Below, piece by piece: positions 1-25,665 of a DNA stretch of 36,033 nucleotides. The stretch covers positions 1-36,033 of the IMG/VR virus record IMGVR_UViG_3300027763_000134. One strand, given 5' to 3'. Every line of letters starts with the position of its first letter. The stretch's first letter is position 1. The notes beneath the pieces are model-generated. The model made no database searches. It was not told where the DNA came from and worked only from the letters and a program-made list of their open reading frames with translations. Source of the stretch: a virus. A program made the translations under genes and the position numbers.

Positions 1-964
1 AGGATCTAAAAGATCTGATAAGATTTCTGGTGTATTAAATGCTGGACAAACTAACGTTACAGAATGGTATGCTGTTGCAGGTTGCGCAACTGCTGCTAAT
101 CAAGTGACTGATGTTGATGGCTGGAACGTTAAGTGTGGTGATATCGTAACTTTAACATTACGTGCTCACTCTTCTTACATTGACACATTGTATTTCAATG
201 GTTTCACTCGTTCAGTAACTGTTCAAGCTCCTTGCTGTGATTGTGGTGGAGATCCTTGTACCACTGTTGATGTTCCTGGTTTGATTGATGCTTTCATTTT
301 GAAATTGCAACAACAAGGTCCTGGTATCAACCCAGACAACATTAGCTTCAACACTTTCTATCAATTCCAAAGAATTGGGGATGATGAAAATGCAATCTTA
401 CGTATTTCTGGTAAGGCATTAACCATCTATGGTCAACCATGTGATGTTGCTGCATTCCCTCAAGAATATGACAGAATGTATTTCCGTACTTTTGTTTACT
501 CAGGTCCTGCTACCACTGCTGATTTCATCGTTGCTGATAACTGTAACATTGTTGCTACAGCTGTAATCACTCAACGTTCTTCTTATGCAACTGGTCAACC
601 TGTTGAAATGAGACAATTAGAGAAAAACTACTATAGCTACCAAGCTGGATATTTGAAGCATTTATACAGAATGGCTGGTTTCAACGAGAACTTTGAATCT
701 TATGTTGAAGATGGTTTTACATATAACACCTACTACATCAAATTCAATGAGTATGACAAATCAGCATACAGCTGGGGTGACTACATCAAAGAAGATTCAA
801 TGGTTATCATAGCTGTTCCAGATAATGGATTAACTGCAACTGTTGAAGCTATTTTAGTTGCTGCGTTGGATTCTCCTGCAGGTGGTAATACATGTGTAAC
901 TACTACAACTAGTACAACTACTGTATGGCCTACTACTTCAACAACAACAACTAATATTCCTTAA
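1..964 (+). CDS. Probable major capsid protein, C-terminal part (5' truncated)
   Basis: The reading frame is open to the left edge (first full codon at base 2), so the gene starts outside the window; a GTG at 104 is internal. About 320 residues are visible. They include a Cys-rich patch (CCDCGGDPC) and a Tyr-rich segment (NYYSYQAGYLKHLYRM), and end in a Thr/Ser tail followed by tandem stops TAA TAG. Codon use differs from the neighbours: AAC and TTC are favoured and about half the Arg codons are CGT, whereas downstream genes use almost only AGA. This suggests very high expression. A strong hairpin terminator follows. In crAss-like phages the major capsid gene sits upstream of the fibre, ring and muzzle block, which fits this position. 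The capsid call comes from codon bias, context and general resemblance, not from a diagnostic motif. Another abundant head protein is the main alternative. Confidence 0.55.
   Translation, partial: GSKRSDKISGVLNAGQTNVTEWYAVAGCATAANQVTDVDGWNVKCGDIVTLTLRAHSSYIDTLYFNGFTRSVTVQAPCCDCGGDPCTTVDVPGLIDAFILKLQQQGPGINPDNISFNTFYQFQRIGDDENAILRISGKALTIYGQPCDVAAFPQEYDRMYFRTFVYSGPATTADFIVADNCNIVATAVITQRSSYATGQPVEMRQLEKNYYSYQAGYLKHLYRMAGFNENFESYVEDGFTYNTYYIKFNEYDKSAYSWGDYIKEDSMVIIAVPDNGLTATVEAILVAALDSPAGGNTCVTTTTSTTTVWPTTSTTTTNIP
899..952 (+). repeat. Thr/Ser-rich codon repeat at the end of the capsid-type gene
   Basis: Runs of ACT/ACA with AGT and TCA encode two Thr/Ser blocks (TTTTSTTT and TTSTTTT) separated by VWP, immediately before the C-terminal NIP and the stop. 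It is a low-complexity, probably flexible and surface-exposed tail. Similar tracts lie in the muzzle gene (16443-16520) and in the next ORF (17142-17205). Confidence 0.8.
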
Positions 965-12158: not shown

Positions 12159-15100
12159 ATGGCAGAAGAACAACAACAAGGTAATATCACTCCTGAATAT
12201 AATACAGCATCTGTAGGAATGAATATGGATAATTCCATTAATCAGGTTCCTAAAGGTGCTCTTACATATGCATTAAATGCTGCTGTTGAAAACTTTGATT
12301 CTAATTCTATCAACTATCAAAATGAACCTGGTAATGAATTCTGTTTGAGTTTTCCTACAGGATTTCAGTTAATAGGAGAACATTTCATCAATGAGCAAAA
12401 CAAACATATATTCTTTATTGTAAATCCTAATACAGGAGAATCACAGATTGGATATATGGATAATAATGATTGTGAATATCGCATTTATATAGATGCTCCT
12501 TGTTTAAACTTTAATGTAAACCATCCTATACATAAGATTGTACATAAGATTACAAATTGCACTACAGAAATTTATTGGACAGATGGTTTTAACCCAAGAA
12601 GATATTTAGATCTTGGAAACATCCCTTACATCATTAAACCAGGAACAGAGCTATGTGATCCTGAATATACAACAACTGTTGACTGTAATCAATTAAAGCT
12701 ACAACCAAACTTCAATATTCCTCAATTAGATATTATTGATATAACTACAGGGGGGGATCTTGTTGCTGGTACATATCAGTTTGCTATTCAATATGCAGAT
12801 CCAAATGGTAATCCTTACACTTCATATTATTCTGTAACAAACCCCACACCTATTGCTAACCCTCAACTCACCACTCCTAATTTTAACTATCAGGTGGGTA
12901 AGTCTATTGTGGTTAATGTTAGTAATCTTGATGCTACAGGACAGTTTCAATATTTCAATCTTGCTGTAATCAAAACAGTTAATGACATCACTTCTGTAGA
13001 ACTTACAGGAACATATTACATTAGTAATACCACTTTACAAATAACCTACACTGGTCAGAACGTAACAAATATACGCTTGGCTATTGCAGATGTGTTTGAA
13101 AAGTTTCCTTATTATGAAATAGCTCAAGATCTTACAGCTGTTCAAGACCTACTTGTATGGGACAACCTTACATCTATTGATAGAATCAACTATCAATCAA
13201 TAGCAAATCAAATCTCTTTATTGTGGGAGAGTTATAGAATCCCTGCTACAGAAAACTATGCAGATGAGTTGAATGCTACAAATCTACGTGGGTACATGCG
13301 TGATGAGGTGTATGCATTTGAAATTGTATTCTTATTAAGGAATGGTAAACAAACAGATGGTTTTCATATTCCTGGTAGAACAAAAAATTATAATGAGATT
13401 TCAAGCCCAGATATTCCAGATACAAATCCTGATTTTATAGGAGATCCTGAATACTACCAAGGTAGTGTTGGATATAGTCCTTATTGGAAGATATACAATA
13501 CAGCTAATATAATAGGACCATCTTCTTCAAAATCCTCAGCAGTAGATTATAAAGGTCCATGGGAATATGGAAGATTTGCATATTGGGAATCAACAGAGCT
13601 CTATCCTTGTAATGAAGCTGTTTGGGGAGAACTATCTGGAAAACCAATAAGACATCATAAGTTTCCAGATATTGCTGTAAGCCCAGCAGTTGAATCTAAA
13701 ATATTTACATCATCAGGTGGTATGGCCATGGGTAATGATGCTGTGTTTCCAATTGGTGTTAGAATAGATTCAACTCAAATAGCAACATTAATAGAAACTT
13801 CAAATCTTACACAAGAGCAAAAAGATGATATTGCTGCATACAAGATTATAAGAGGAAACAGAGGAACAAACAAATCTATTGTTGCTAAAGGGATTTTGAG
13901 AAATGTAGGAAAGTATAATAGAGAAGGAACAGACTACTACTATCCAAACTATCCATATAACGATCTTAGAGATGATCCTTTTTTAAATGTTACAAATAAT
14001 GCATGGGTAGAATTAGCAAATTCATATAGAATAATAATTTCTAAAATAGAACCAGATATTTATGGAGGCCCAGCTTATGCTGAAGTAGAATACACAGATA
14101 TTAATACAAATAGAAAAGCCACTAAAAAATATTACAAAGTGGGAGATAGAGATCAAATTTGTTCTATAGGTTTTCCTATAATGTCATACGGTGAAGGACT
14201 AATTTCATATGCAAAGTATGATTCTTGGAGAGTTGGTGTTAATTCTATTACACCATTTTGTGCTGGTTGGAGAGCAGAGTGGACAAATATATATGGACAA
14301 ACTGAAAGTAGGTTTATTGATGGGTGGCCATATTATGGTGTGCAGTTTATTCAAGTTAAACATGGAACAATTGTTAGATGTGTAATAGATCAGAATTGTA
14401 ATGGATGTGGACAAATTAATGAATATTATAGTACAATTGGAACTGATGATTGTGCAGAACAAGTTCCACTCCCTATAAATTCTAATACAACTGATTCCAA
14501 ATATAGACATGTGTTTAATTCACCTGAAACATCTTTTGGACAGCCATTCTTAGGAGATTATTTAAAGCTTGAGAATGTAATGTTTGGAAGAGGTAGAGCT
14601 CACTTTGTAGAAGTGAAGAAAAATGCAATGTACAAACTTCTTACAAAAGAAGCTCAAGAAGATGCTTTAGGAGCATCAAATTCATTAGCTGGATATACAT
14701 CTCCTTGGAGTGCACAAGCAATGTTTGCTGCATATCAAGCCTATCTTACAATCTATATAAATGGAATAACAAGAAGAAACTATGCTTATTCATACAACTC
14801 TATAGCAGATTATAATTACAATGATACAATAGATAATAATCTTGGTATTAAACAAAGACCATTAGACATTGCACAATATATAATTCCTGGTGTACAATCT
14901 GTAGGAGACAACCACGTTGTGAATAATTGGAATAGAGAATCTTCTGTTTATTTAAAAACAAAAGAATCAATAGACCCACTACCCTTTCCTGATAAAACAC
15001 CAAGTATTGCTCCAGGAGGAATAAGCTTTGTAACAGATGAATCAAGATCTACAATATCATCCTCAAATGTGTGTGCAACCCCAGCACAACAAACAGATAT

Positions 15101-16898
15101 ATCGGTAGTTTCCTATTATGCATCTATAAAGAATATAGCAGTTAGTCAATGGGGACAAATGTATTCTTATGAAACATTAGATACAGGATTCCAAAGAAGC
15201 TTAATCAATATACCAAATGTTGAATCAGAAATCTTTTTTGGTGGTGATACATTCATCAGCAGATTTGCATTTAAAACAAAGCTTCCTTTCTTTATAGACA
15301 ATAGAGTGGGTGCTCCTGATGATTCAGATATATTCTATGATGAGATTGGTAATATTGCCTATCCTAAATACTGGCACTCTGCAAGATCTATTCTATCAGA
15401 TTTTGGTGCTACAGGAGGACTTTTACCTAATATAATTTCATATAAGGCTAATAATTTTGATTGTCCAAACAGTCAGCTTCCTGGACCCCCTGCAAATAAT
15501 CCAAATAGAACATTCTACAATGGGTATTTCTATTTGTTTGCATATGGTATTCCAAACTTCTATTGTGAAACATCTTACAATACAGATCTTAGACAAGCAT
15601 TTAATAATAAAGAAGGTGACTTCTGGCCTCACGTGAATACAGATATTCCTGATGATTGGTTACAAGAAAGCTTTGTTACAATTCTTCAAGACAATACATA
15701 TTATTATAACGTAACATTCTCTAAGCAGAATAAAGAAAACTTTTTTTCACATCTTCCTCAGGATTGGAAACAACAGCTTTGTTTTACAAACTATCCTTTC
15801 AGAGCAATATATTCTGAAGCACAAAGTGCAAATGCTGATAATAGAGTGAACAGTTGGTTAATCTATCGTCCTATTGCATCTTTTGATTTTCCTCAAAACT
15901 ATGGCAAGCTTACATCATTAGATGGTATTCAGAACAGAGCTATCCTTGCTAGGTTTGAGAACAAGAGTCTTTTGTACAACACTCTCCTAACTATAAATAC
16001 AAGTAATCCTCAAGCTGCCTATCTTGGTAATGATACATTGTTCAAGAGTTCACCTCCAATAGATTTTGCTGAAACAGATCTTGGATATGTAGGAAGTCAG
16101 AACAAGATGTTATTAAAGATTCCTCAAGGACAAATCTCTGTTGATGCTAAGAGAGGGCAAGTGTTTTTAATAGCTGGTAATCAAGCTACAGATCTTTCTG
16201 CATTTGGTTCTGGTATGAATAGGTTCTTTACAGATCATCTTGCATTTGAAATCTTAAGACATTTTCCTAATGTTGATGTAGATAATCACTTCAATGGCAT
16301 AGGTCTACATGGTGTATTTGATTCTAAATTTGATCGTGTTATTATATCAAAGCTTGACTACATACCTCTATCTAAAGATATTAAATACGATCCTGAAACA
16401 AAAGAATTTTATATAGAGGAAGAGATAGATTGTATCCCAATAACTACTACCACAACATCAAGTAGTAGTACATCAACTTCTACATCTAGTACAAGTTCTA
16501 CCACTAGTTCAAGTACAACTATTGCAATACCAAGTGCACCTTTCTATTGGCAGTTTAATAGTTTTGGAAGCATCACCGCAACTATACAACTTCAAAACTT
16601 TGCAACTTCTGCATATTTAATTAATGAAACACTGTCATCATCTAACTCTGGAGCAGTTAGTCTTCCTATAGTTCCATATAATTTAACTATAACATGGGAA
16701 AGCGGTGGTAGTCAACCAGTTAAATTTAGACTTTGTGATAGCACTACAGGCACTGAAATATATTATGTAAATAATATTGGAGCTACTCCTACATACACTC
16801 CAAGTGTAACATTATCATTTACACCAATAGTAGGACATGTATATAGTCTTCAAGTGGTAAATGGAGCAGCTGAACCAAGTCCTTGTATTATAATATAA
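12159..16898 (+). CDS. Muzzle (tail tube end / stem) protein with an added C-terminal domain (1579 aa)
   Basis: The N-terminus (GMNMDNSINQVPKGALTYAL, then YQNEPGN, FPTGFQLIG and TEIYWTDGFNPRRYLDLG) matches the pattern of crAss-like muzzle proteins, large beta-rich proteins that close the short tail and gate DNA ejection. The body runs to about residue 1427, ending in LDYIPLSKDIKYDPETKEFY. Then come 26 consecutive Thr/Ser residues (1429-1454) and a ~120-residue beta-type domain (from APFYWQFNSFG to the end at CIII). Muzzle proteins of this type, as I recall them, continue with 'FCNKSWT...SWISFHSY'; here that segment is in the next ORF, in the same frame after tandem TAATAA stops. The linker and last domain therefore look like an insertion that split the gene. 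Assignment to the muzzle family is fairly secure; the split is inference. Confidence 0.8.
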   Translation: MAEEQQQGNITPEYNTASVGMNMDNSINQVPKGALTYALNAAVENFDSNSINYQNEPGNEFCLSFPTGFQLIGEHFINEQNKHIFFIVNPNTGESQIGYMDNNDCEYRIYIDAPCLNFNVNHPIHKIVHKITNCTTEIYWTDGFNPRRYLDLGNIPYIIKPGTELCDPEYTTTVDCNQLKLQPNFNIPQLDIIDITTGGDLVAGTYQFAIQYADPNGNPYTSYYSVTNPTPIANPQLTTPNFNYQVGKSIVVNVSNLDATGQFQYFNLAVIKTVNDITSVELTGTYYISNTTLQITYTGQNVTNIRLAIADVFEKFPYYEIAQDLTAVQDLLVWDNLTSIDRINYQSIANQISLLWESYRIPATENYADELNATNLRGYMRDEVYAFEIVFLLRNGKQTDGFHIPGRTKNYNEISSPDIPDTNPDFIGDPEYYQGSVGYSPYWKIYNTANIIGPSSSKSSAVDYKGPWEYGRFAYWESTELYPCNEAVWGELSGKPIRHHKFPDIAVSPAVESKIFTSSGGMAMGNDAVFPIGVRIDSTQIATLIETSNLTQEQKDDIAAYKIIRGNRGTNKSIVAKGILRNVGKYNREGTDYYYPNYPYNDLRDDPFLNVTNNAWVELANSYRIIISKIEPDIYGGPAYAEVEYTDINTNRKATKKYYKVGDRDQICSIGFPIMSYGEGLISYAKYDSWRVGVNSITPFCAGWRAEWTNIYGQTESRFIDGWPYYGVQFIQVKHGTIVRCVIDQNCNGCGQINEYYSTIGTDDCAEQVPLPINSNTTDSKYRHVFNSPETSFGQPFLGDYLKLENVMFGRGRAHFVEVKKNAMYKLLTKEAQEDALGASNSLAGYTSPWSAQAMFAAYQAYLTIYINGITRRNYAYSYNSIADYNYNDTIDNNLGIKQRPLDIAQYIIPGVQSVGDNHVVNNWNRESSVYLKTKESIDPLPFPDKTPSIAPGGISFVTDESRSTISSSNVCATPAQQTDISVVSYYASIKNIAVSQWGQMYSYETLDTGFQRSLINIPNVESEIFFGGDTFISRFAFKTKLPFFIDNRVGAPDDSDIFYDEIGNIAYPKYWHSARSILSDFGATGGLLPNIISYKANNFDCPNSQLPGPPANNPNRTFYNGYFYLFAYGIPNFYCETSYNTDLRQAFNNKEGDFWPHVNTDIPDDWLQESFVTILQDNTYYYNVTFSKQNKENFFSHLPQDWKQQLCFTNYPFRAIYSEAQSANADNRVNSWLIYRPIASFDFPQNYGKLTSLDGIQNRAILARFENKSLLYNTLLTINTSNPQAAYLGNDTLFKSSPPIDFAETDLGYVGSQNKMLLKIPQGQISVDAKRGQVFLIAGNQATDLSAFGSGMNRFFTDHLAFEILRHFPNVDVDNHFNGIGLHGVFDSKFDRVIISKLDYIPLSKDIKYDPETKEFYIEEEIDCIPITTTTTSSSSTSTSTSSTSSTTSSSTTIAIPSAPFYWQFNSFGSITATIQLQNFATSAYLINETLSSSNSGAVSLPIVPYNLTITWESGGSQPVKFRLCDSTTGTEIYYVNNIGATPTYTPSVTLSFTPIVGHVYSLQVVNGAAEPSPCIII
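16443..16520 (+). repeat. 26-codon Thr/Ser-only tract in the muzzle gene
   Basis: Twenty-six successive codons are all Thr (ACN) or Ser (AGT, TCN), with no other residue. The tract separates the muzzle body from a terminal beta-type domain. The low-complexity DNA (ACA, ACT, AGT, TCT units) could change length by slippage or recombine with the related tracts at 899-952 and 17142-17205. Confidence 0.9.
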
Positions 16899-16910: not shown

Positions 16911-17249
16911 ATGGCAAATAGAAATTGTACACCGATTATAAAAAGAACAGTGGTTAAGATTACAGATCCTGAATACTTCTGTAACAAATCATGGACTCTT
17001 TCTTTTAATTTTAATACAAAGAGTTGGATTTCATTCCACAGTTATATTCCTAACTTTTATATAGCTGAGAATAACTTCTTCTATTCAGGAGTGAATGGGT
17101 GTTGTGATGATCTTGAAGCTATTGCTGTAAATGAGCTTCCTGCAACCACATCAACAACAACAACAAGCAAACCAATAATTACAACAACCACCACATCTAC
17201 AACAGTTCAATATAAATGTGGATTAGAAGGCTTTGCAAAACAATTATAA
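16911..17249 (+). CDS. Apparent displaced C-terminus of the muzzle protein (112 aa)
   Basis: A 112-residue ORF, in the same frame as the muzzle gene and separated from it by TAATAA and nine bases. Residues ~12-60 (VVKITDPEYFCNKSWTLSFN, then TKSWISFHSYIPNFYIAENN and FFYSG) look like the normal C-terminal region of a crAss-like muzzle protein rather than an independent family. After this comes a second Thr/Ser tract (near residues 78-98) and a short VQYKCGLEG end. The protein could assemble with the longer muzzle product as a separate subunit. An ATG in an A-rich leader supports independent translation. If the family resemblance is wrong, it is simply a small virion protein with a Thr-rich linker. 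Confidence 0.65.
   Translation: MANRNCTPIIKRTVVKITDPEYFCNKSWTLSFNFNTKSWISFHSYIPNFYIAENNFFYSGVNGCCDDLEAIAVNELPATTSTTTTSKPIITTTTTSTTVQYKCGLEGFAKQL
17142..17205 (+). repeat. Thr/Ser-rich tract in the small muzzle-like ORF
   Basis: Two blocks of Thr/Ser codons (TTSTTTTS and TTTTTSTT) flank KPII. It is similar in composition to the tracts at 899-952 and 16443-16520. Confidence 0.85.
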
Positions 17250-18120: not shown

Positions 18121-21100
18121 TGGCTAAGCAAAAAGGTTGGTTAGATAAATATAGTGAAGAAATAAACGCTAATGAAGGATATTCTTCTGCTCCTAAGGAA
18201 TGGATGGGAGAAGGATATAGTAATGTAGGTAGAGATTTTTCTCCTGCATGGGGTGGACAGTTTAAAGAAGGTGGATATATACCACAAGCTCAGTTTGGTA
18301 AGATCATTCCAGAACCTACAGAAGGAGATAGTCTTGTTCTTTATAATAATACATTAGCTCTTTTAGACTATTATGGGAATAAGAAAAAATATAAAAATAC
18401 TGGATCTGATATTATTCCTAATAAAACTTCTCGTGATATTACAAAGTCTAATATGGATGATGTAAATCGGGTAAAAGAAAGATTAAAAAACTCTTTTCCT
18501 TTTACTACCAATAGATCAAGTTTATATAGTAGAGAAGGTCTTGGTGATAAAGATTTTAAACTGTCTGAATATTATGGAAGATTTAATCCATATCAATATA
18601 GAAAAAGAGAATCTGCAAATACTATTCTTGATTTAGATGCTCCATTTGCAAGATATGATACAAGAATAAATCCTACAATAAATTATAATTTTGAAAATAT
18701 AGATAGAGGTAATGGTTGGAAATCAAATATTCTTTTTGGAGATCAAGTAAGTTTTTATGGATATGATCCTCTTGCAGTTAAACCATATATTTTAAGAACT
18801 CCTAAAGAAAAGATAGAGTGGAATAATAAATATGGTAAAAAAACTTCTCAACCAATTCCTCCTCCTGCTTTAAAGAAAAAAGAAGAAACTCCACAAAAAC
18901 CTAAACCAAAAACACCACAAAATCCTACTATTAAAGTTGGTAACAAAACAGGAAGAATGTCTGGAGATATTTTTGTATTTGACAAACCAATCCCTAAACC
19001 AGAACCTACATTAAAACCAAGACCATTTGTACCTGCTACTAAACTTCCTATGGGAGAACCTTCTGAAGGAATGCAGATACAACAAAGAACATTTCCTAAA
19101 CTAAATATTCCAAATGTAAACATGTCTGGTCCTTATATGGTGGGATATACAGATTATGATACACAACAAGGTGTGGATAGAGGATTTGCAACAGCTGAAG
19201 AAAGAGATGCTTTTGTGCAAACACTTAGAGAAAGAGATAGTAAAGCTAATGTTAATTTAAATTCAAATATTAGTTCTTATTACGATTTGAGTAAAAGAAA
19301 AAAAGAAAAGAAAAAATATGGTGGTAATATTCTACAGGCACAGGAAGGGTTATCTTTTTTACCAGAACAAGATCCTGAAATGATGTATACAGATAGATTC
19401 AATACATCATTAACTAAAAAAGAACAGAAAGAGTTTAATGAATGGGTAGCTAAAGAATCTGAAAGACAGGGTAGAGATATTATGATGGACAAGGGTGCAT
19501 ATGATGTACAAGGTTTTTGGAAGTCTGGTGATTATAAAAAGATGGATCAAGATAATCATGGAACTGATACATGGAAAAAACCAAATCATCCTACATTTAG
19601 TAACCAATCTAACTATCATGGTGTAGATGGATTCTATGGCGGTAACTGGACTAATGATGCTGGGTATCAACCATCTAAACAAACAGCTTCTACATATGGT
19701 CCTAGTTATTATTCTAGACTGTTTGCTGAAGAACCTAATAGACCTGAGCATTTAGATGCAAGTAGATATACATCTGGAGTTAATAGACCTTCTCCTCTTT
19801 ATTATGCAATGGGTGGTTCTCTTCCTGGTTCTACAGGATTCATGTATGCACGTACAGGTGCTCCTTCTAATGGTCCTTATGCAAAGAAGACAAGGCCTTC
19901 AGCACAAACTGGAGTTAATATAACAGAAACACCTCAAGTACAAAGTATGGAAGAAGGTGAATCTGCTGCAAAAGATTGGTTACAAAATTGGTATACAGGA
20001 AGAGCTAAAGATCCAAAGTTTACAGATCTTGCTAATAAAAGACTTGATGCTTTACAAAAATTAAAAGTTGAGGGTGATCCTGATTTATTAAGAACAAGAG
20101 AGGCATATGGTATTTATGGATTTTATCCTAATAACTACACTCCGATTGTTGATGTTAGTTCTGATCCTACTGGTATACAAACTTCAAATATTCTTCATGA
20201 AGAATTACATGGTTTAAGTAATTTAGCTCCACAAGAAGATATTCCAAATATCCTTGCGCAGAATGATTTATTAGATCCATATGAAAATTATGATCTTGTA
20301 AATGAAGATGAAAAGTTAGCTAGATTATATCAGTTTAGAAAGAGATATGGTATAGATCCTAATAAAGAATACACTACAGAAGACATGCAGGAAATAATGG
20401 ATGACTTTAACAGTAGACCAACCCCTAAAGAAAAAGGTAAAGAACTTGATCCCAACTTTGATTGGAATATAAAACAGCTTTTTGAAATTATAGGAAATGA
20501 TCCAGAAAAGCTAAGAAATTTAAATAGGGATGTTGTTAAAAATAATAGTAATCAATCTACAGTTGCAAAGAATGGTATGACTTATTATCAAAATGGACTA
20601 GATTGGAAACCAAAGAGTATTAGTAAGAATGGTAAACGGTTAGATAAGTATGGTCCAGGTGGTTCTATTATGGATGGGTGTCCTCCTTATTTTACTAAAA
20701 ATGCATTTGGTGTTTGTGTAAATGCTTCTGGTCAAACTCCAGAACAAGCTAATGCATTTAAAAATACAATAAACACTGTACTCAATCCTCAAAAAAAATC
20801 AGTAGGAACTCCATATAAAACTAGAAGTCAAGAAGTAAAAGAAGCTACAGATAGAGCTCACAGACAAAATTTCCATATTGGAGAATTTAGTAATCAAGCA
20901 ACTATAAATCAAGGACAAGCTACTACAAAAGAATCAGAAGCTAGAAGAAAAACACTTACTCAGCAAGCAGTTAGCAATATGCCTAATGTTGTATATGATG
21001 AACAAACAGGAACTACGTCTGCTGTAAATCCTAACATGACATATACAGGAGAACCTGCCAACTTCATGGGAGAAAGACAACAAAAATCTGTAGATCATAT

Positions 21101-22223
21101 AATGGGATCTTTAGAAGCTGCAGGTTATATAACAGGAGCAAGTGAGTTAGTTGGTGCTGGATATAATTTATTAAAACCCATCATAGCTGAGTCTGTAGAA
21201 ACTGGACTTCTTTCTAAAGTAGGTAATTTTATAAAACCTTCAGCACCTACATATCTTGGAGAAGCAGTTAGTGAAAGTAAACTATTAAGTAGATATAATC
21301 CTATTACTAAAGCAGATGAGTTTTATACAGCTAATGTTGCAGATAGACTTGTGCCAGGTAGATCTTTTGAAGATGTCTCTCATAAGATGAGTAACTTAAG
21401 AAAAGATTTAGGAATAAGTCGTGCTGAAGATTTTCTTTATAAAAGAGTTCCTAAACTTGGTCCTAAAATTCCTTTAGACCAAGGAAAGGGAATACTTTTT
21501 GATGCTGAGACAGGGCAATTATTTGATTCTAATACAAGGTATTGGTTAAATAGACAATATGGTCATACACCATCTATAAATGAATTATTAGAACCAAGAG
21601 GACTTGTATCTAAGTTTAAATCTATTGGACAAAGTCCTAAACAATCGTCTTTATTTGGAAATAGTGAAATGTTTACAAACCCTAAACAATATTTTACTAA
21701 ACCTTCTGGTGGACCAACATACAATCCTAACTATGAAAGCATTAAAAATGCTATTAGTCAAGGACGTGATCCACTTGCTGAAACTTTAAGTTTTGGTACA
21801 TATACACCAGCACCTAGAGTTTTAGATTGGAAAAAGATTGGACAAACTGCAGCAGGTGTTGGTATTGGATCAGGACTTATTTCAGGAGCGTTAAACCAAA
21901 AGAAAGAAGGTGGTGTAGTAAAAGATGATAATGGATATTGGAATCCTGATAACTGGGGAAAGGTGGTGGAAATAGATTCTCCAGATATAACAATGCAAGG
22001 TGTTAATCAACCTCTATTAGGAATATCAGATGAAGGAGATGTTAAATATATGACACCAGGAAAAAATTATAAATTCAAAGGTAAGAAAGTCAAAGAATAC
22101 CCTGTAGGAAAGAATGGTATAAATCAACAGGATGAGAAAGTCATTGAGCAACTAGATCAATTAACCAATTTCACAAACTATAACAAACCAACCAAAGGTG
22201 GATGGTTAGATAAATACAACTAA
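18120..22223 (+). CDS. Large virion/cargo protein with zincin-like HEELH motif (1367 aa)
   Basis: The start overlaps the previous stop (TAATG). The motif NILHEELHGLSNLAP centres on H693-E694-E695-L696-H697, the HExxH core of zincin metallopeptidases. Zincin-like domains are known in large virion proteins of crAss-like phages. The N-terminal ~50 residues and the C-terminus share a WLDKY motif (residues 7-11 and 1362-1366). Two copies of a GGxIxQAQxG motif occur (residues 51-60 and 401-410), with related YAMGGSLPG and YGPGGSIMDG segments. Residues ~220-330 are Pro/Lys-rich and probably disordered. A hydrophobic Gly-rich stretch (AAGVGIGSGLISGAL) lies near residue 1244. The end has ITMQGVNQPLLGISDEGD and an EYPVGKNG tail. 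A packaged, ejected or maturation protein is likely; protease activity is predicted from motif only. Confidence 0.75.
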   Translation: MAKQKGWLDKYSEEINANEGYSSAPKEWMGEGYSNVGRDFSPAWGGQFKEGGYIPQAQFGKIIPEPTEGDSLVLYNNTLALLDYYGNKKKYKNTGSDIIPNKTSRDITKSNMDDVNRVKERLKNSFPFTTNRSSLYSREGLGDKDFKLSEYYGRFNPYQYRKRESANTILDLDAPFARYDTRINPTINYNFENIDRGNGWKSNILFGDQVSFYGYDPLAVKPYILRTPKEKIEWNNKYGKKTSQPIPPPALKKKEETPQKPKPKTPQNPTIKVGNKTGRMSGDIFVFDKPIPKPEPTLKPRPFVPATKLPMGEPSEGMQIQQRTFPKLNIPNVNMSGPYMVGYTDYDTQQGVDRGFATAEERDAFVQTLRERDSKANVNLNSNISSYYDLSKRKKEKKKYGGNILQAQEGLSFLPEQDPEMMYTDRFNTSLTKKEQKEFNEWVAKESERQGRDIMMDKGAYDVQGFWKSGDYKKMDQDNHGTDTWKKPNHPTFSNQSNYHGVDGFYGGNWTNDAGYQPSKQTASTYGPSYYSRLFAEEPNRPEHLDASRYTSGVNRPSPLYYAMGGSLPGSTGFMYARTGAPSNGPYAKKTRPSAQTGVNITETPQVQSMEEGESAAKDWLQNWYTGRAKDPKFTDLANKRLDALQKLKVEGDPDLLRTREAYGIYGFYPNNYTPIVDVSSDPTGIQTSNILHEELHGLSNLAPQEDIPNILAQNDLLDPYENYDLVNEDEKLARLYQFRKRYGIDPNKEYTTEDMQEIMDDFNSRPTPKEKGKELDPNFDWNIKQLFEIIGNDPEKLRNLNRDVVKNNSNQSTVAKNGMTYYQNGLDWKPKSISKNGKRLDKYGPGGSIMDGCPPYFTKNAFGVCVNASGQTPEQANAFKNTINTVLNPQKKSVGTPYKTRSQEVKEATDRAHRQNFHIGEFSNQATINQGQATTKESEARRKTLTQQAVSNMPNVVYDEQTGTTSAVNPNMTYTGEPANFMGERQQKSVDHIMGSLEAAGYITGASELVGAGYNLLKPIIAESVETGLLSKVGNFIKPSAPTYLGEAVSESKLLSRYNPITKADEFYTANVADRLVPGRSFEDVSHKMSNLRKDLGISRAEDFLYKRVPKLGPKIPLDQGKGILFDAETGQLFDSNTRYWLNRQYGHTPSINELLEPRGLVSKFKSIGQSPKQSSLFGNSEMFTNPKQYFTKPSGGPTYNPNYESIKNAISQGRDPLAETLSFGTYTPAPRVLDWKKIGQTAAGVGIGSGLISGALNQKKEGGVVKDDNGYWNPDNWGKVVEIDSPDITMQGVNQPLLGISDEGDVKYMTPGKNYKFKGKKVKEYPVGKNGINQQDEKVIEQLDQLTNFTNYNKPTKGGWLDKYN

Positions 22224-22224
22224 T

Positions 22225-25200
22225 ATGAAAGCAGAAATCTTAAAAATCGCTGGTGTTAAGAATGAGAAAGAATTCTACAAGAAGTATCCTTCTGAAGAAG
22301 CCTTTATGAAAGTACATGGCAAAGAGTTTAAAAAAGCTAAACTTGGTAAAGCCATAGCTCCCAAAGCACAAGATGGTATAGGTTCTTATACAGGAGGAGA
22401 AAATGTATATAATCCTCAACCTCTCAACTTTCAAAATGCCTATGATTCTTACGATCTTCAAATGACAGGTTCTACAAATGCCCAAAGACAAGCTCAAGCA
22501 CAAGCTGCACAACAAGCTCAACAAGCTGCAAAAAAACCTGCTGCTGGTGGAGGTGGGGGTGGTATGGATGTTTCTAAAATCATGGGAATGATTGGTAGTG
22601 GTGAAGGAGGGATGGATGCTAGTGCTCTAGCAGGAATGGCTAAAAAAGGTAAGAAAGTTCCTAAAGGACAAACTGGTCTTGGATTAAATAGTCCTGCAGG
22701 TGGAACTATGACAGGAATGCAAGCAGCACAAACAAATCCATATATGTATGGAACACTTCCTCCATTAGATGCTTCTGGACAAACTCCTATGTTAAATCCA
22801 AACCAAAATCCTCCAATGTTAGATCCTATGTATGCAGGAACTTTACAGCAACAAATTGCAGGATCTGGAAATCTTCCTAAAAAAGATCCTATGGATGCAA
22901 TCTCTAAATATACAGGTCTTGCAGGAAAAGTGTATGGGGGTATTAAAAAACTAAAAGCAGAAAAAGAAGCAAGAAAGTCAGCAGAACAACAAGCTTCTGT
23001 AAGTGATCTTAGTTTACAAGCAGCTCTGTCACAACCAGAACAAAAAAGACGTATGTATGATAGACCAGATGATCCATATAAAGTAATACAACCAGGACAA
23101 CTTAATGATCCTCAAGGAAGAAATACAAATATTCTTAAGGCACAAGATGGTATGCAGATAGGTGGTAATCAAACAGAGATACAGAACATGTATAATCCTG
23201 GAGACATCTATCAAGATCTTGGATTTGAACCATTGAGTGATTCTGAAATAGTAAAACAATACAGAGCTGGTGGACTTATACATAGAATGCAAACTGGAGG
23301 TGGTATGACTGCATTAGATTTTGGTAATGCAGGTAGTGGAATACCAGCTCCTTCTTGGGCAACTGTAGGAAATGCAGGACAAATGATTGGACAAGGTGTA
23401 ACAGGAAATAATGCAGGTGGTGAAGTGGGTGCTGATATAGGTGGAACAGCTGGTGGAGCTATAGGAATGGCTGTAGGAGGACCTGCAGGAAAAGCTATAG
23501 GTCAAGCAATTGGACAAACTGTTGGAGCTATTGGTGGAGGACTATTAGATAGAAATCCAATGAAAATGGAAAAGGCTCAAAATAGAACAAAACGTAATGT
23601 ACAAACAGCAGCAATGTATTCTATGGGACAAGGATTACAATCTCAATATTCTGCTCATGTAAGAAACGGTGGAGATATTCCTTATGCAGAAGATGGATGG
23701 GTGAGCAATGATTGGTTGCCACAAGTGATTACACAGTTTGGTGAACATAAGGTGAGTGATCTATTAAAACCTGATCCTATGATGGATACATTGAGAACTG
23801 GTGGACGTGTTACACAGAACAATATGTATCCTCAAGATCAATATGCTTTTGGTGGTTCTCTTAAAACTACATGGGGTGGATATGCTGAACCTATTTCAAA
23901 TAATCCTCATGATGATAGTGAGACTGTTATGTTCAGAGGTCTTCCTGGTATGGGTGCACATAGTGAATCTGATGGTAATGGGCATACAGGAATAGGTGTA
24001 GATTATGGTAATGATATTCATGATAGCTATACAGATTATGCAGAATTTGGTTCTAAAAATGCTCCTGCAAAAGTTGAAGTAGAAAAACGTGAACCTGCTA
24101 TAGAGATGAAAGATCCTCAAACAGGGGAAAAGAATATGTTAGTATTTGGTGATCTTATAATGCCTAAACAGTTTCTTAGTAAGATTGATCTCAAAGCTGA
24201 AACAAGTAAAGCTGTAAGAGAAAGTATGCAGAACAAGAAGTTTAAAAACTATATTGCTGATGTTGCACATCAAGAGAATAAATTAAACAAGCTTATAGAA
24301 AAATCAACAAAAAAGCTAAACAATCTCAAATCATTCACTCCAACAGATCTATTAGAAATGAATTCATTTAAGGCAAATTTATATGGAGCAAATAAAGATC
24401 TTGAAAGGTATTCTCAAATAAAAAGAAATGCTGCTGGTGTACAAACTGCACTTCATGATACAGCTAATGAACATGGTGTTGATGTAGTTGCTCTTGCTAA
24501 AGGTAAAATTAAAATAGATAAACAAGCACAAAAAGAAATGGCTAAATACGGTAAAGAAATATTCAAAGCACAAGATGGAACAAATCTTCCTGCATTAAAA
24601 CAAGAAGATTATGAATACTTGAAGAAGCTTTACGATGAGGCTAAGACACAAAAAAAGGGTGATAAGGTACTTAAGTTTCAACAAGAGTTCCATAGACTTG
24701 CTCCAGAATTTGCAAAAAAAGTGATAGGTAGAGAACCTCTTACAACTAAAGGTAAGAAGGAAAAGCTTACAACTGCAGATCTTGCTTCTAATGAAGATGA
24801 AATATTTGGCCAAAGAACAGAACAATACATGTCTCAATTAGATAAGGCTCCAAGATTTAAAGGAAAGGTTACAGCTCCTACTGCTGTAGACTACCCAGAA
24901 ACAACTAGCCCAACTACTACACTTGCTGTACAACCTCTTAAGCAAGATCCTTGGATGACTGCACTTAATCAACTTGCTCCTTATTTAAGACCTAGTGATA
25001 CAGACTATAATGTAGATCTTTATCCTGAGATGATGGCTGCAGGAATGAATCAAGTGGAACCAGTGTTTGCTCAAGGATACCAACCTCAACTATTAACACC
25101 ATATGACATTTCTTATCAGGATCAATTGAATGAAATAACTGCACAAGCAAGAGCTGCAGAAAGAATGGCTGGACAAAACCCTGCAGCTGCTGCATCTATA

Positions 25201-25665
25201 TTAGCAACAGCAAGTGGTGAGAAGAATAAAGTGTTAGGAGAACAGTTTAGACAAAACCAAGCTCAAAGAATGGGTGTGTACAATCAGAACATTGCTACAT
25301 TGAACGATGCTCAACTTAAGAACCTTGGAATATATGCTGATCAAGCTGCTAAACAATCTCAAGCAAGATCTAATACAAAAGCCCAAGCAATGGAAATAGA
25401 AAAATCTATGTCTGATAAGATTGCTAAGAACAAGTCAGAAAATAATGCTCTCCAAATATATGAAAATCTTTACAACTATAGATTTGGTAAATCTGGTAGA
25501 GCACAGAATTACAATCCTCTAGCACAGTTTGATATTTCTGCAGATGGTAAAGTGTCTGCTCAAGCTGCTCCTGAAGGATATGAATATGAAACAATTCTTA
25601 AAAAGAAAAAGAAAGAAGAGACTGCTAGAAATGGTTCTATCGTAAGAGCTCTTAAAAACTTCTAA
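22225..25665 (+). CDS. Large Gly-rich virion/cargo protein (1146 aa)
   Basis: The N-terminal helical segment (EFYKKYPSEEAFMKVHG, near residues 13-29) is followed by a Gln/Ala-rich and poly-Gly region. Residues ~393-445 form a glycine-zipper-like hydrophobic stretch (GGTAGGAIGMAVGGPAGKAI, then GQAIGQTVGAIGGGLL) that could insert into a membrane. The KAQDG motif appears three times (residues 47-51, 305-309, 781-785), with related GGLIHRMQTG and GGDIPYAEDG. The middle has FRGLPGMGAHSESDGNGHTG and VFGDLIMPKQF, and a long helical region follows. The C-terminal ~250 residues are helical and Gln/Ala-rich (EITAQARAAERMAGQNPAAA). This layout fits an ejected internal or cargo protein. No enzyme motif is visible. 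The next gene starts 86 bases downstream behind a promoter-like site. Confidence 0.7.
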   Translation: MKAEILKIAGVKNEKEFYKKYPSEEAFMKVHGKEFKKAKLGKAIAPKAQDGIGSYTGGENVYNPQPLNFQNAYDSYDLQMTGSTNAQRQAQAQAAQQAQQAAKKPAAGGGGGGMDVSKIMGMIGSGEGGMDASALAGMAKKGKKVPKGQTGLGLNSPAGGTMTGMQAAQTNPYMYGTLPPLDASGQTPMLNPNQNPPMLDPMYAGTLQQQIAGSGNLPKKDPMDAISKYTGLAGKVYGGIKKLKAEKEARKSAEQQASVSDLSLQAALSQPEQKRRMYDRPDDPYKVIQPGQLNDPQGRNTNILKAQDGMQIGGNQTEIQNMYNPGDIYQDLGFEPLSDSEIVKQYRAGGLIHRMQTGGGMTALDFGNAGSGIPAPSWATVGNAGQMIGQGVTGNNAGGEVGADIGGTAGGAIGMAVGGPAGKAIGQAIGQTVGAIGGGLLDRNPMKMEKAQNRTKRNVQTAAMYSMGQGLQSQYSAHVRNGGDIPYAEDGWVSNDWLPQVITQFGEHKVSDLLKPDPMMDTLRTGGRVTQNNMYPQDQYAFGGSLKTTWGGYAEPISNNPHDDSETVMFRGLPGMGAHSESDGNGHTGIGVDYGNDIHDSYTDYAEFGSKNAPAKVEVEKREPAIEMKDPQTGEKNMLVFGDLIMPKQFLSKIDLKAETSKAVRESMQNKKFKNYIADVAHQENKLNKLIEKSTKKLNNLKSFTPTDLLEMNSFKANLYGANKDLERYSQIKRNAAGVQTALHDTANEHGVDVVALAKGKIKIDKQAQKEMAKYGKEIFKAQDGTNLPALKQEDYEYLKKLYDEAKTQKKGDKVLKFQQEFHRLAPEFAKKVIGREPLTTKGKKEKLTTADLASNEDEIFGQRTEQYMSQLDKAPRFKGKVTAPTAVDYPETTSPTTTLAVQPLKQDPWMTALNQLAPYLRPSDTDYNVDLYPEMMAAGMNQVEPVFAQGYQPQLLTPYDISYQDQLNEITAQARAAERMAGQNPAAAASILATASGEKNKVLGEQFRQNQAQRMGVYNQNIATLNDAQLKNLGIYADQAAKQSQARSNTKAQAMEIEKSMSDKIAKNKSENNALQIYENLYNYRFGKSGRAQNYNPLAQFDISADGKVSAQAAPEGYEYETILKKKKKEETARNGSIVRALKNF

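Follow-up and report, generated by a model that had tools for sequence, protein, structure and literature searches.

What role does a short, degenerate peptide play when it recurs between otherwise unrelated segments of two adjacent phage proteins? The question is raised by a 36,033-base IMG/VR contig (IMGVR_UViG_3300027763_000134; "the window" denotes this whole stretch), in which two consecutive genes encode the large proteins referred to here as cargo A and cargo B. The window was assigned to a crAss-like phage through a Pfam CrAss_Ring_1 match in its ring 1 protein and a muzzle protein matching phrog_37948 (6e-105). Our analysis indicates that the motif, which in short form reads about GGxIPKAQNG, is very probably the border peptide of exchangeable modules in paired mosaic cargo proteins of crAss-like phages. 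A preliminary description of this DNA had pointed to a motif that recurs in probable cargo proteins of the virion and had named cleavage and docking as its candidate roles, a proposal that is retained here; the location of the motif at module borders had been overlooked.

Six-frame translation placed all previously listed copies, as well as the HEELH zincin motif of cargo A (20196-20210), in frame at their coordinates and revealed an additional copy (SAQTG, ending at 19913) that had been missed. IMG/VR was searched with a conserved piece of cargo A (S4, see below; 336 relatives) and with cargo B (289 relatives), and 80 of each were kept for analysis. The motif model and scan suggested in the preliminary description were realized as a position-specific scoring matrix (PSSM) built from the eight window copies and applied only to relatives, at a threshold of at least 12 bits. 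Enrichment was clear in the cargo B proteins (15,070 aa), with 21 matches compared to 0.52 ± 0.70 in shuffles, and slight in the cargo A proteins, where the signal was much weaker at that width (2 matches, 0.2 expected); no match at this threshold occurred in the muzzle, ring 1, 289-aa protein or protein C of the relatives. The core pattern A[QE]xG was counted 334 times in 125 A proteins (67 when shuffled) and 483 times in 120 B proteins (168 when shuffled). Alignment of 669 distinct motif windows gave the consensus [KY]-x-G-[GK]-x-[ILV]-P-K-A-Q-[ND]-G, in which flanking positions left free by the search pattern were also conserved. The degeneracy of the motif and the GA-rich stretches of these proteins might suggest chance matches or low-complexity glycine-rich linkers, an explanation left with practically no probability as it is ruled out alike by the PSSM and shuffle tests and by the border and breakpoint tests described below.

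The architecture of cargo A became apparent from a short relative (L002, 205-233 aa) that matches the window protein in four separated stretches. These are contiguous in L002, and window cargo A is therefore the same scaffold with three large inserts. Using hidden Markov models (HMMs) of five scaffold pieces, S1 to S5, seeded from the first relatives, the order of the pieces was found to be constant across 125 distinct A proteins, which provide five slots holding inserts of 60-900 aa in many combinations. The scaffold totals ~205 aa, and three of its five slots are occupied in the window (514, 221 and ~426 aa). Scaffolds carrying no insert at all also exist (e.g., L120, 243 aa; L149, 239 aa), and some A proteins lack a recognizable piece, mostly S3 or S1; in L014, S2 and S3 are both missing and the joint lies at KNGG. 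As judged from these alignments, cargo A consists of a conserved scaffold with five slots that accept unrelated modules. The irregular spacing of motif copies between unrelated segments, correctly described before, arises because modules are inserted.

Inserts are bracketed by the motif. Typical edges (> and < marking insert starts and ends) read GGQF>EDGGxIPMAQNGK, SAQDG>...PIAQNG<QEMKFYQ, SISRDG>SEIPNAQKG...KKxG<GVIKDD and EYPV>AQKGK...KQRNGGVNNADAQP. With a tolerance of 14 aa, 85% of the 5' borders and 71% of the 3' borders have an AQxG or xGG nearby, compared to 3.4% of positions inside the modules; when just the insert side is considered, AQxG occurs at 13 of 16 slot-4 starts and 21 of 45 slot-3 starts, versus 0.6% inside. 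Recent exchange was traced at the DNA level between A genes at least 93% identical: the 115 distinct breakpoints lie a median of 3 aa from AQxG or GG (25 aa for random positions), with 78% no more than 6 aa away (18% for random positions). The pair L070/L078 (98-100% nucleotide identity), for example, differs by swaps at SA|QTG, A|SGG and EYPMAQN|G, and L018/L019 form a further close pair with breaks at the motif. Modules also move between slots, as 195 pairs of homologous modules occupy different ones; in the best of these pairs, the similarity ends at the motif or close to it. Examples include L151 slot 1 and L160 slot 2 (72%), the N-terminal slot of L016 and slot 4 of L004 (74% over 504 aa), and the first ~190 aa of the window slot 1 insert, which are 55% identical to a slot 4 module of L145. 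A motif copy within that window insert (GGNILQAQEG) probably splits it into two modules. Transfer between phages is exemplified, outside this group of relatives, by the cargo proteins gp041 of phi4:1 and gp081 of phi14:2, distant Cellulophaga baltica phages whose muzzle and ring 1 proteins are only 27-28% identical; they have a common zincin module that is 79% identical in amino acids, 80% in nucleotides, and cut at GG motifs. These comparisons show that the breaks left by recent module gain, loss and replacement fall on the motif, and that modules travel between slots and between phages.

Similar comparisons indicate that cargo B likewise has inserts at motif copies. At the window site KAIAPKAQDG, L002 has an insert of ~180 aa with GDVIHKMQDG on one side and QGGLIQAQDG on the other, and the segment following the last copy holds an SLT domain in L014 and a weak GH108 match in L011. 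In six relatives (L005, L008, L083, L087, L132, L133), A and B are fused into one chain, with KxGKxxKKAQxG or close variants at the joint, similar to the window copy GKKVPKGQTG.

As breakpoints fall on the motif, it could act merely as DNA, providing short homology for module recombination, with no role for the peptide. The motif glutamine codon CAG is indeed over-used in cargo A genes (47% outside S2 and 84% at S2, versus 20% overall), suggesting that some copies spread by copying. However, the codons of copies within one protein are no more alike than usage predicts (0.45 versus 0.52), and cargo B keeps the amino acids without a codon signature (CAG for 29% of motif glutamines, 23% background). 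A purely DNA-level role is accordingly improbable, and a site-specific recombination site was rejected because codon conservation is too low. The positions of the features discussed here are collected in Table 1.

Table 1 Scaffold pieces, inserts and motif copies of cargo A and cargo B in the window.
Feature	Position	Strand	Basis or remark
Cargo A, mosaic scaffold protein, 1367 aa	18120..22223	+	Open reading frame (ORF); S1-S5 common to 124 other distinct proteins
Scaffold piece S1 (KGWLDKY...SPAWGGQF)	18135..18263	+	Scaffold HMM/alignment
Slot 1 insert, 514 aa	18264..19805	+	Alignment with relatives
Motif GGYIPQAQFG	18270..18299	+	Cargo A, 5' border of slot 1
Motif GGNILQAQEG	19320..19349	+	Cargo A, within slot 1 insert
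Scaffold piece S2, C-terminal border motif SAQTG	19806..19913	+	Alignment, scaffold HMM
Slot 2 insert, zincin-like module, 221 aa (residues 599-819 of cargo A), end AKNG	19914..20576	+	HEELH at 20196-20210
Scaffold piece S3 (MTYYQNGLDWKPKSIS) and border after S3	20577..20633	+	Alignment, scaffold HMM
Slot 3 insert, ~426 aa, end KKEGG	20634..21911	+	Alignment
Scaffold piece S4, small beta-rich domain (KDDNGYWNP...EYPV)	21912..22100	+	Structure prediction
Scaffold piece S5 (LDQLTNFTNYN...GGWLDKYN)	22152..22220	+	Scaffold HMM
Cargo B, 1146 aa, likely divergent homologue of crAss001 cargo C1 (gp45)	22225..25665	+	ORF, hhalign
Motif KAIAPKAQDG	22348..22377	+	Cargo B; KAQDG ends at 22377
Motif GKKVPKGQTG	22648..22677	+	Cargo B; KGQTG at 22663-22677
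Motif NTNILKAQDG	23122..23151	+	Cargo B; KAQDG ends at 23151
Motif GGLIHRMQTG	23269..23298	+	Cargo B; syntenic VKQYxxGGxIxKAQxG in relatives
Motif GGDIPYAEDG	23668..23697	+	Cargo B
Cargo B region with putative portal-binding-domain homologue	23839..24507	+	Aligned to gp45 439-505
Motif GKEIFKAQDG	24550..24579	+	Cargo B; KAQDG ends at 24579; exchangeable segments next in relatives

Only some modules of the relatives were recognized by Pfam, and these comprise SLT, ART-PolyVal (two modules), glucosaminidase, histidine phosphatase, ADP-ribosyltransferase exoenzyme, phage lysozyme and DUF6973. HExxH is found in 39 of 155 modules compared to 0.43 in shuffles. Several activities can reside in one polypeptide: the A protein of L016 combines ADPrib_exo_Tox with a second large module, and that of L110 has two copies of the window zincin family, in slots 2 and 4. 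In window cargo A, the zincin-like module of slot 2 is the only recognizable enzyme module; it gave no match in a Pfam search and is 52% identical to the slot 2 module of L110, which reads HEFGH.

This module bears on the possibility that A and B resemble polyproteins, with a protease cutting AQxG/GG in the particle or after injection and thereby freeing the modules. The position of the motif between modules, in predicted disordered stretches, is consistent with cutting, as are the six A-B fusions, which look as though it were immaterial, after processing, whether the two proteins start out joined or apart, and the mobility of S4, which belongs to A here but in phi4:1 and Lbo-JY46 opens other cargo genes. 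Precedents exist as well, since polyvalent proteins have been proposed to undergo zincin processing, DdrB of P1 is known to be processed (both PMC5512222), and a prohead protease cuts head proteins of SPN3US (PMC10052503). The HEELH zincin had been raised as a possible processing enzyme, yet it is itself an optional slot 2 module, absent from L002, L120 and L149, which retain the motif. Nor does motif density track it, being 3.8 with and 3.4 without zincin per 1000 aa in B (p=0.06) and slightly lower with zincin in A (2.8 versus 3.5 per 1000 aa, p=0.04). Because zincins are optional and motif density is independent of them, the in-window zincin was rejected as a general maturation protease. 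Protein D has a zincin-like site, GTAYHEVFEAV (window ~34200; L026 ~32576), that reads HExxE here and in many relatives, whereas crAss001 gp47 has YHEAFH; as the window and many motif-bearing lineages read HExxE, a universal protease in protein D was left as a weak candidate. No protease was recognized by Pfam among 20 conserved genes of relative G006, although an unrecognized one is still possible; motifs are kept in empty-slot scaffolds, where cuts would yield scraps of 20-40 aa; and the words "cleave" and "protease" are absent from the crAss001 structure paper. Taken together, we consider cleavage rather unlikely. A C39-type double-glycine leader reading of LSDSEIVKQYRAGG was also considered and set aside, as its spacing seemed not to fit.

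A different role is suggested by crAss001 gp45, of which cryo-electron microscopy resolved two parts, one (residues 214-245) inside the tail barrel and the other (425-552) bound to the portal (PMC10172136). In pairwise hhalign comparisons, a C-terminal stretch of cargo B matched gp45 with an E value of 1.2e-4, and a second region matched gp45 residues 439-505, inside the portal-bound part, with an E value of 1.4e-3; the two matches are collinear, and reversed and unrelated controls gave E values of 0.16 or worse. Cargo B is thus likely a divergent homologue of gp45, as far as such profile comparisons can tell. The profile searches of the PDB and Foldseek searches with cargo B returned only spurious matches, and a comparison of protein C with crAss001 gp46 gave no support for homology. 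The portal-bound domain of gp45 starts with AFGGWLNTQGG, which resembles GGWLDKY at the ends of cargo A, and the tail-bound segment follows directly after AYGGPLE. Within the scanned crAss001 stretch, only gp45 was enriched in xxGGx[ILV] (12 versus 1.2), as were gp080 and gp081 in the scanned stretch of phi14:2.

Each copy might consequently serve primarily as a packaging or portal-docking signal, i.e., an address peptide for the portal, ring or capsid interior. Docking would fit the peptide-level conservation in B, where motif glutamine codons stay near background, and the predicted disorder of the short conserved pieces S1-S3, as is often seen in binding peptides; it is also indirectly supported by the ordered portal-bound domain of gp45 starting at a GG-type peptide (PMC10172136). 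Conversely, proteins C and D, likely cargo as well, have few or no copies, and copy number and position vary widely. We regard a primary docking signal as a plausible minority explanation.

Because cargo B is likely a gp45 homologue, and the counterparts of A and B in phi4:1 (gp040/gp041) and phi14:2 (gp080/gp081) are annotated as virion proteins from tandem mass spectrometry (MS/MS), we infer that both proteins are packaged into the virion and enter the host by injection. The modules (zincin, ADP-ribosyltransferase, muralytic enzymes and others) would then act on the envelope or the host during entry. Each motif copy may form a disordered, uncleaved joint and, being a short peptide, may also dock to the inside of the virion. 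Such a joint would let folded modules hang in a row and unfold one after another through portal and tail, and would allow in-frame module exchange without harm to neighbors. In line with this, all six cargo B copies scored by the PSSM lie in AlphaFold segments with a predicted local distance difference test (pLDDT) score below 50, and within the scaffold only S4 received a confident prediction. When the scaffold model served as a Foldseek query, phage proteins were retrieved, phi4:1 gp040 among them (E value 3e-4), along with an insignificant Hint match (E value 0.23) and nothing in the PDB at E values up to 0.001.

Several observations weigh against this explanation. Since S2 has SAQxG at its own end, the border count within 14 aa involves some circularity; the breakpoint and cross-slot tests suffer less from this, yet are based on related sequences, and several cargo B copies coincide with no insertion seen among relatives. 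The similarity of gp45 to cargo B is modest, its E values being pairwise and against one template sequence, and Foldseek with cargo B gave no match to gp45. About 4 of the 12 gp45 xxGGx[ILV] matches fall in a glycine-rich, membrane-like stretch. The two AlphaFold models are of low quality (mean pLDDT 50 and 47), and since 56% of B lies below 50 anyway, the argument from disorder is weak. Weighing these points, we lean slightly towards an uncleaved joint or docking over cleavage, and we hold the explanation as a whole (a module-border peptide in packed and injected cargo, acting as uncleaved joint and docking peptide) to be reasonably probable.

The genomic setting is that of late virion genes. 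In the relatives classified, cargo A and B lie between the muzzle and the large cargo genes, and the order ring 1, muzzle, 289-aa protein, A, B, C, D recurs in nearly all direct relatives of A/B, few of which were found. The order muzzle, cargo, large cargo is common to the window, its relatives and the crAss001 gp45 locus. CrAss-type virion features comprise, besides the two window proteins named above, CrAss_Ring_2, P22_portal and weak Ring_3/4 matches in relative G006. Searches of 50,697 phage records with A and B (tblastn) and of genome contigs (genome_contigs) with S4 returned no match. Inspection by eye found HNH/homing-endonuclease-like ORFs directly between the 289-aa gene and cargo A in three relatives (L002:8865-9386, L008:8516-9061, L021:7713-8471), which could drive recombination there. 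G001 and G006 are 94% identical in a 517-aa gene taken for the major capsid protein and 82% identical in the portal, and their cargo A is common only in scaffold pieces. Leptolyngbya phage Lbo-JY46 (L022) is the nearest named muzzle relative; its recorded host is a cyanobacterium, and most other named relatives infect Bacteroidota. Several genes of the virion region (window 2-964, 12159-16898, 16911-17249) encode Thr/Ser-rich TTTSTT stretches at the C terminus or close to it.

Among known systems, the nearest concept is the polyvalent protein, whose tested features were found here at the family level. Polyvalent proteins, which are delivered with phage DNA as A and B putatively are, are likewise multidomain and mix zincins, ADP-ribosyltransferases and muralytic domains (Iyer et al. 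2017, PMC5512222); the conserved non-catalytic scaffold with fixed slots and the border motif are not described in the passages of that paper considered here, and the words "crAss" and "linker" are absent from it. Like gp45 (PMC10172136; 7qog, 8ckb), cargo B is encoded shortly after the muzzle gene, with collinear similarity and GG-type motifs in both, but it is divergent in sequence, holds inserts that can be exchanged and bears the motif in its AQxG form. The proteins phi4:1 gp041 and phi14:2 gp081 have tandem zincin/lysozyme-like modules between GG motifs at the genomic place of cargo A, whereas the S1-S5 scaffold is not recognized there and S4 stands at the start of phi4:1 gp040. Bacterial polymorphic toxins also combine a constant part with swappable effector modules, in contrast to the five slots, internal ones included, of a phage cargo protein. 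Domain-shuffling phage mosaicism (PMC10684548) similarly exchanges protein fragments between phages, but that text is without crAss phages, ejection proteins or linkers, and the joints described here hold a defined peptide. In the literature searched, with preprints and most subscription papers outside the search, a slotted polyvalent cargo with a border peptide has not been described.

CrAss-like phages are among the most abundant viruses known. Standing at module edges, the motif reveals the boundary between consecutive payloads, so that long unannotated cargo genes become readable as strings of modules and the start and stop of payload domains can be predicted. It also offers a concrete handle on packing and ejection, namely whether joints are cut, docked or simply threaded. 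As the motif marks the sites of recombination in cargo genes, payload turnover between phages of one host can be followed. A bolder and tentative suggestion, which we consider possible but doubtful, is that the border motif is an address-and-joint signal, such that any domain placed between two copies would be packed into, and threaded out of, crAss-like virions. If true, cargo A would be a natural plug-in chassis for protein delivery, whose payloads evolve by slot-wise swapping.

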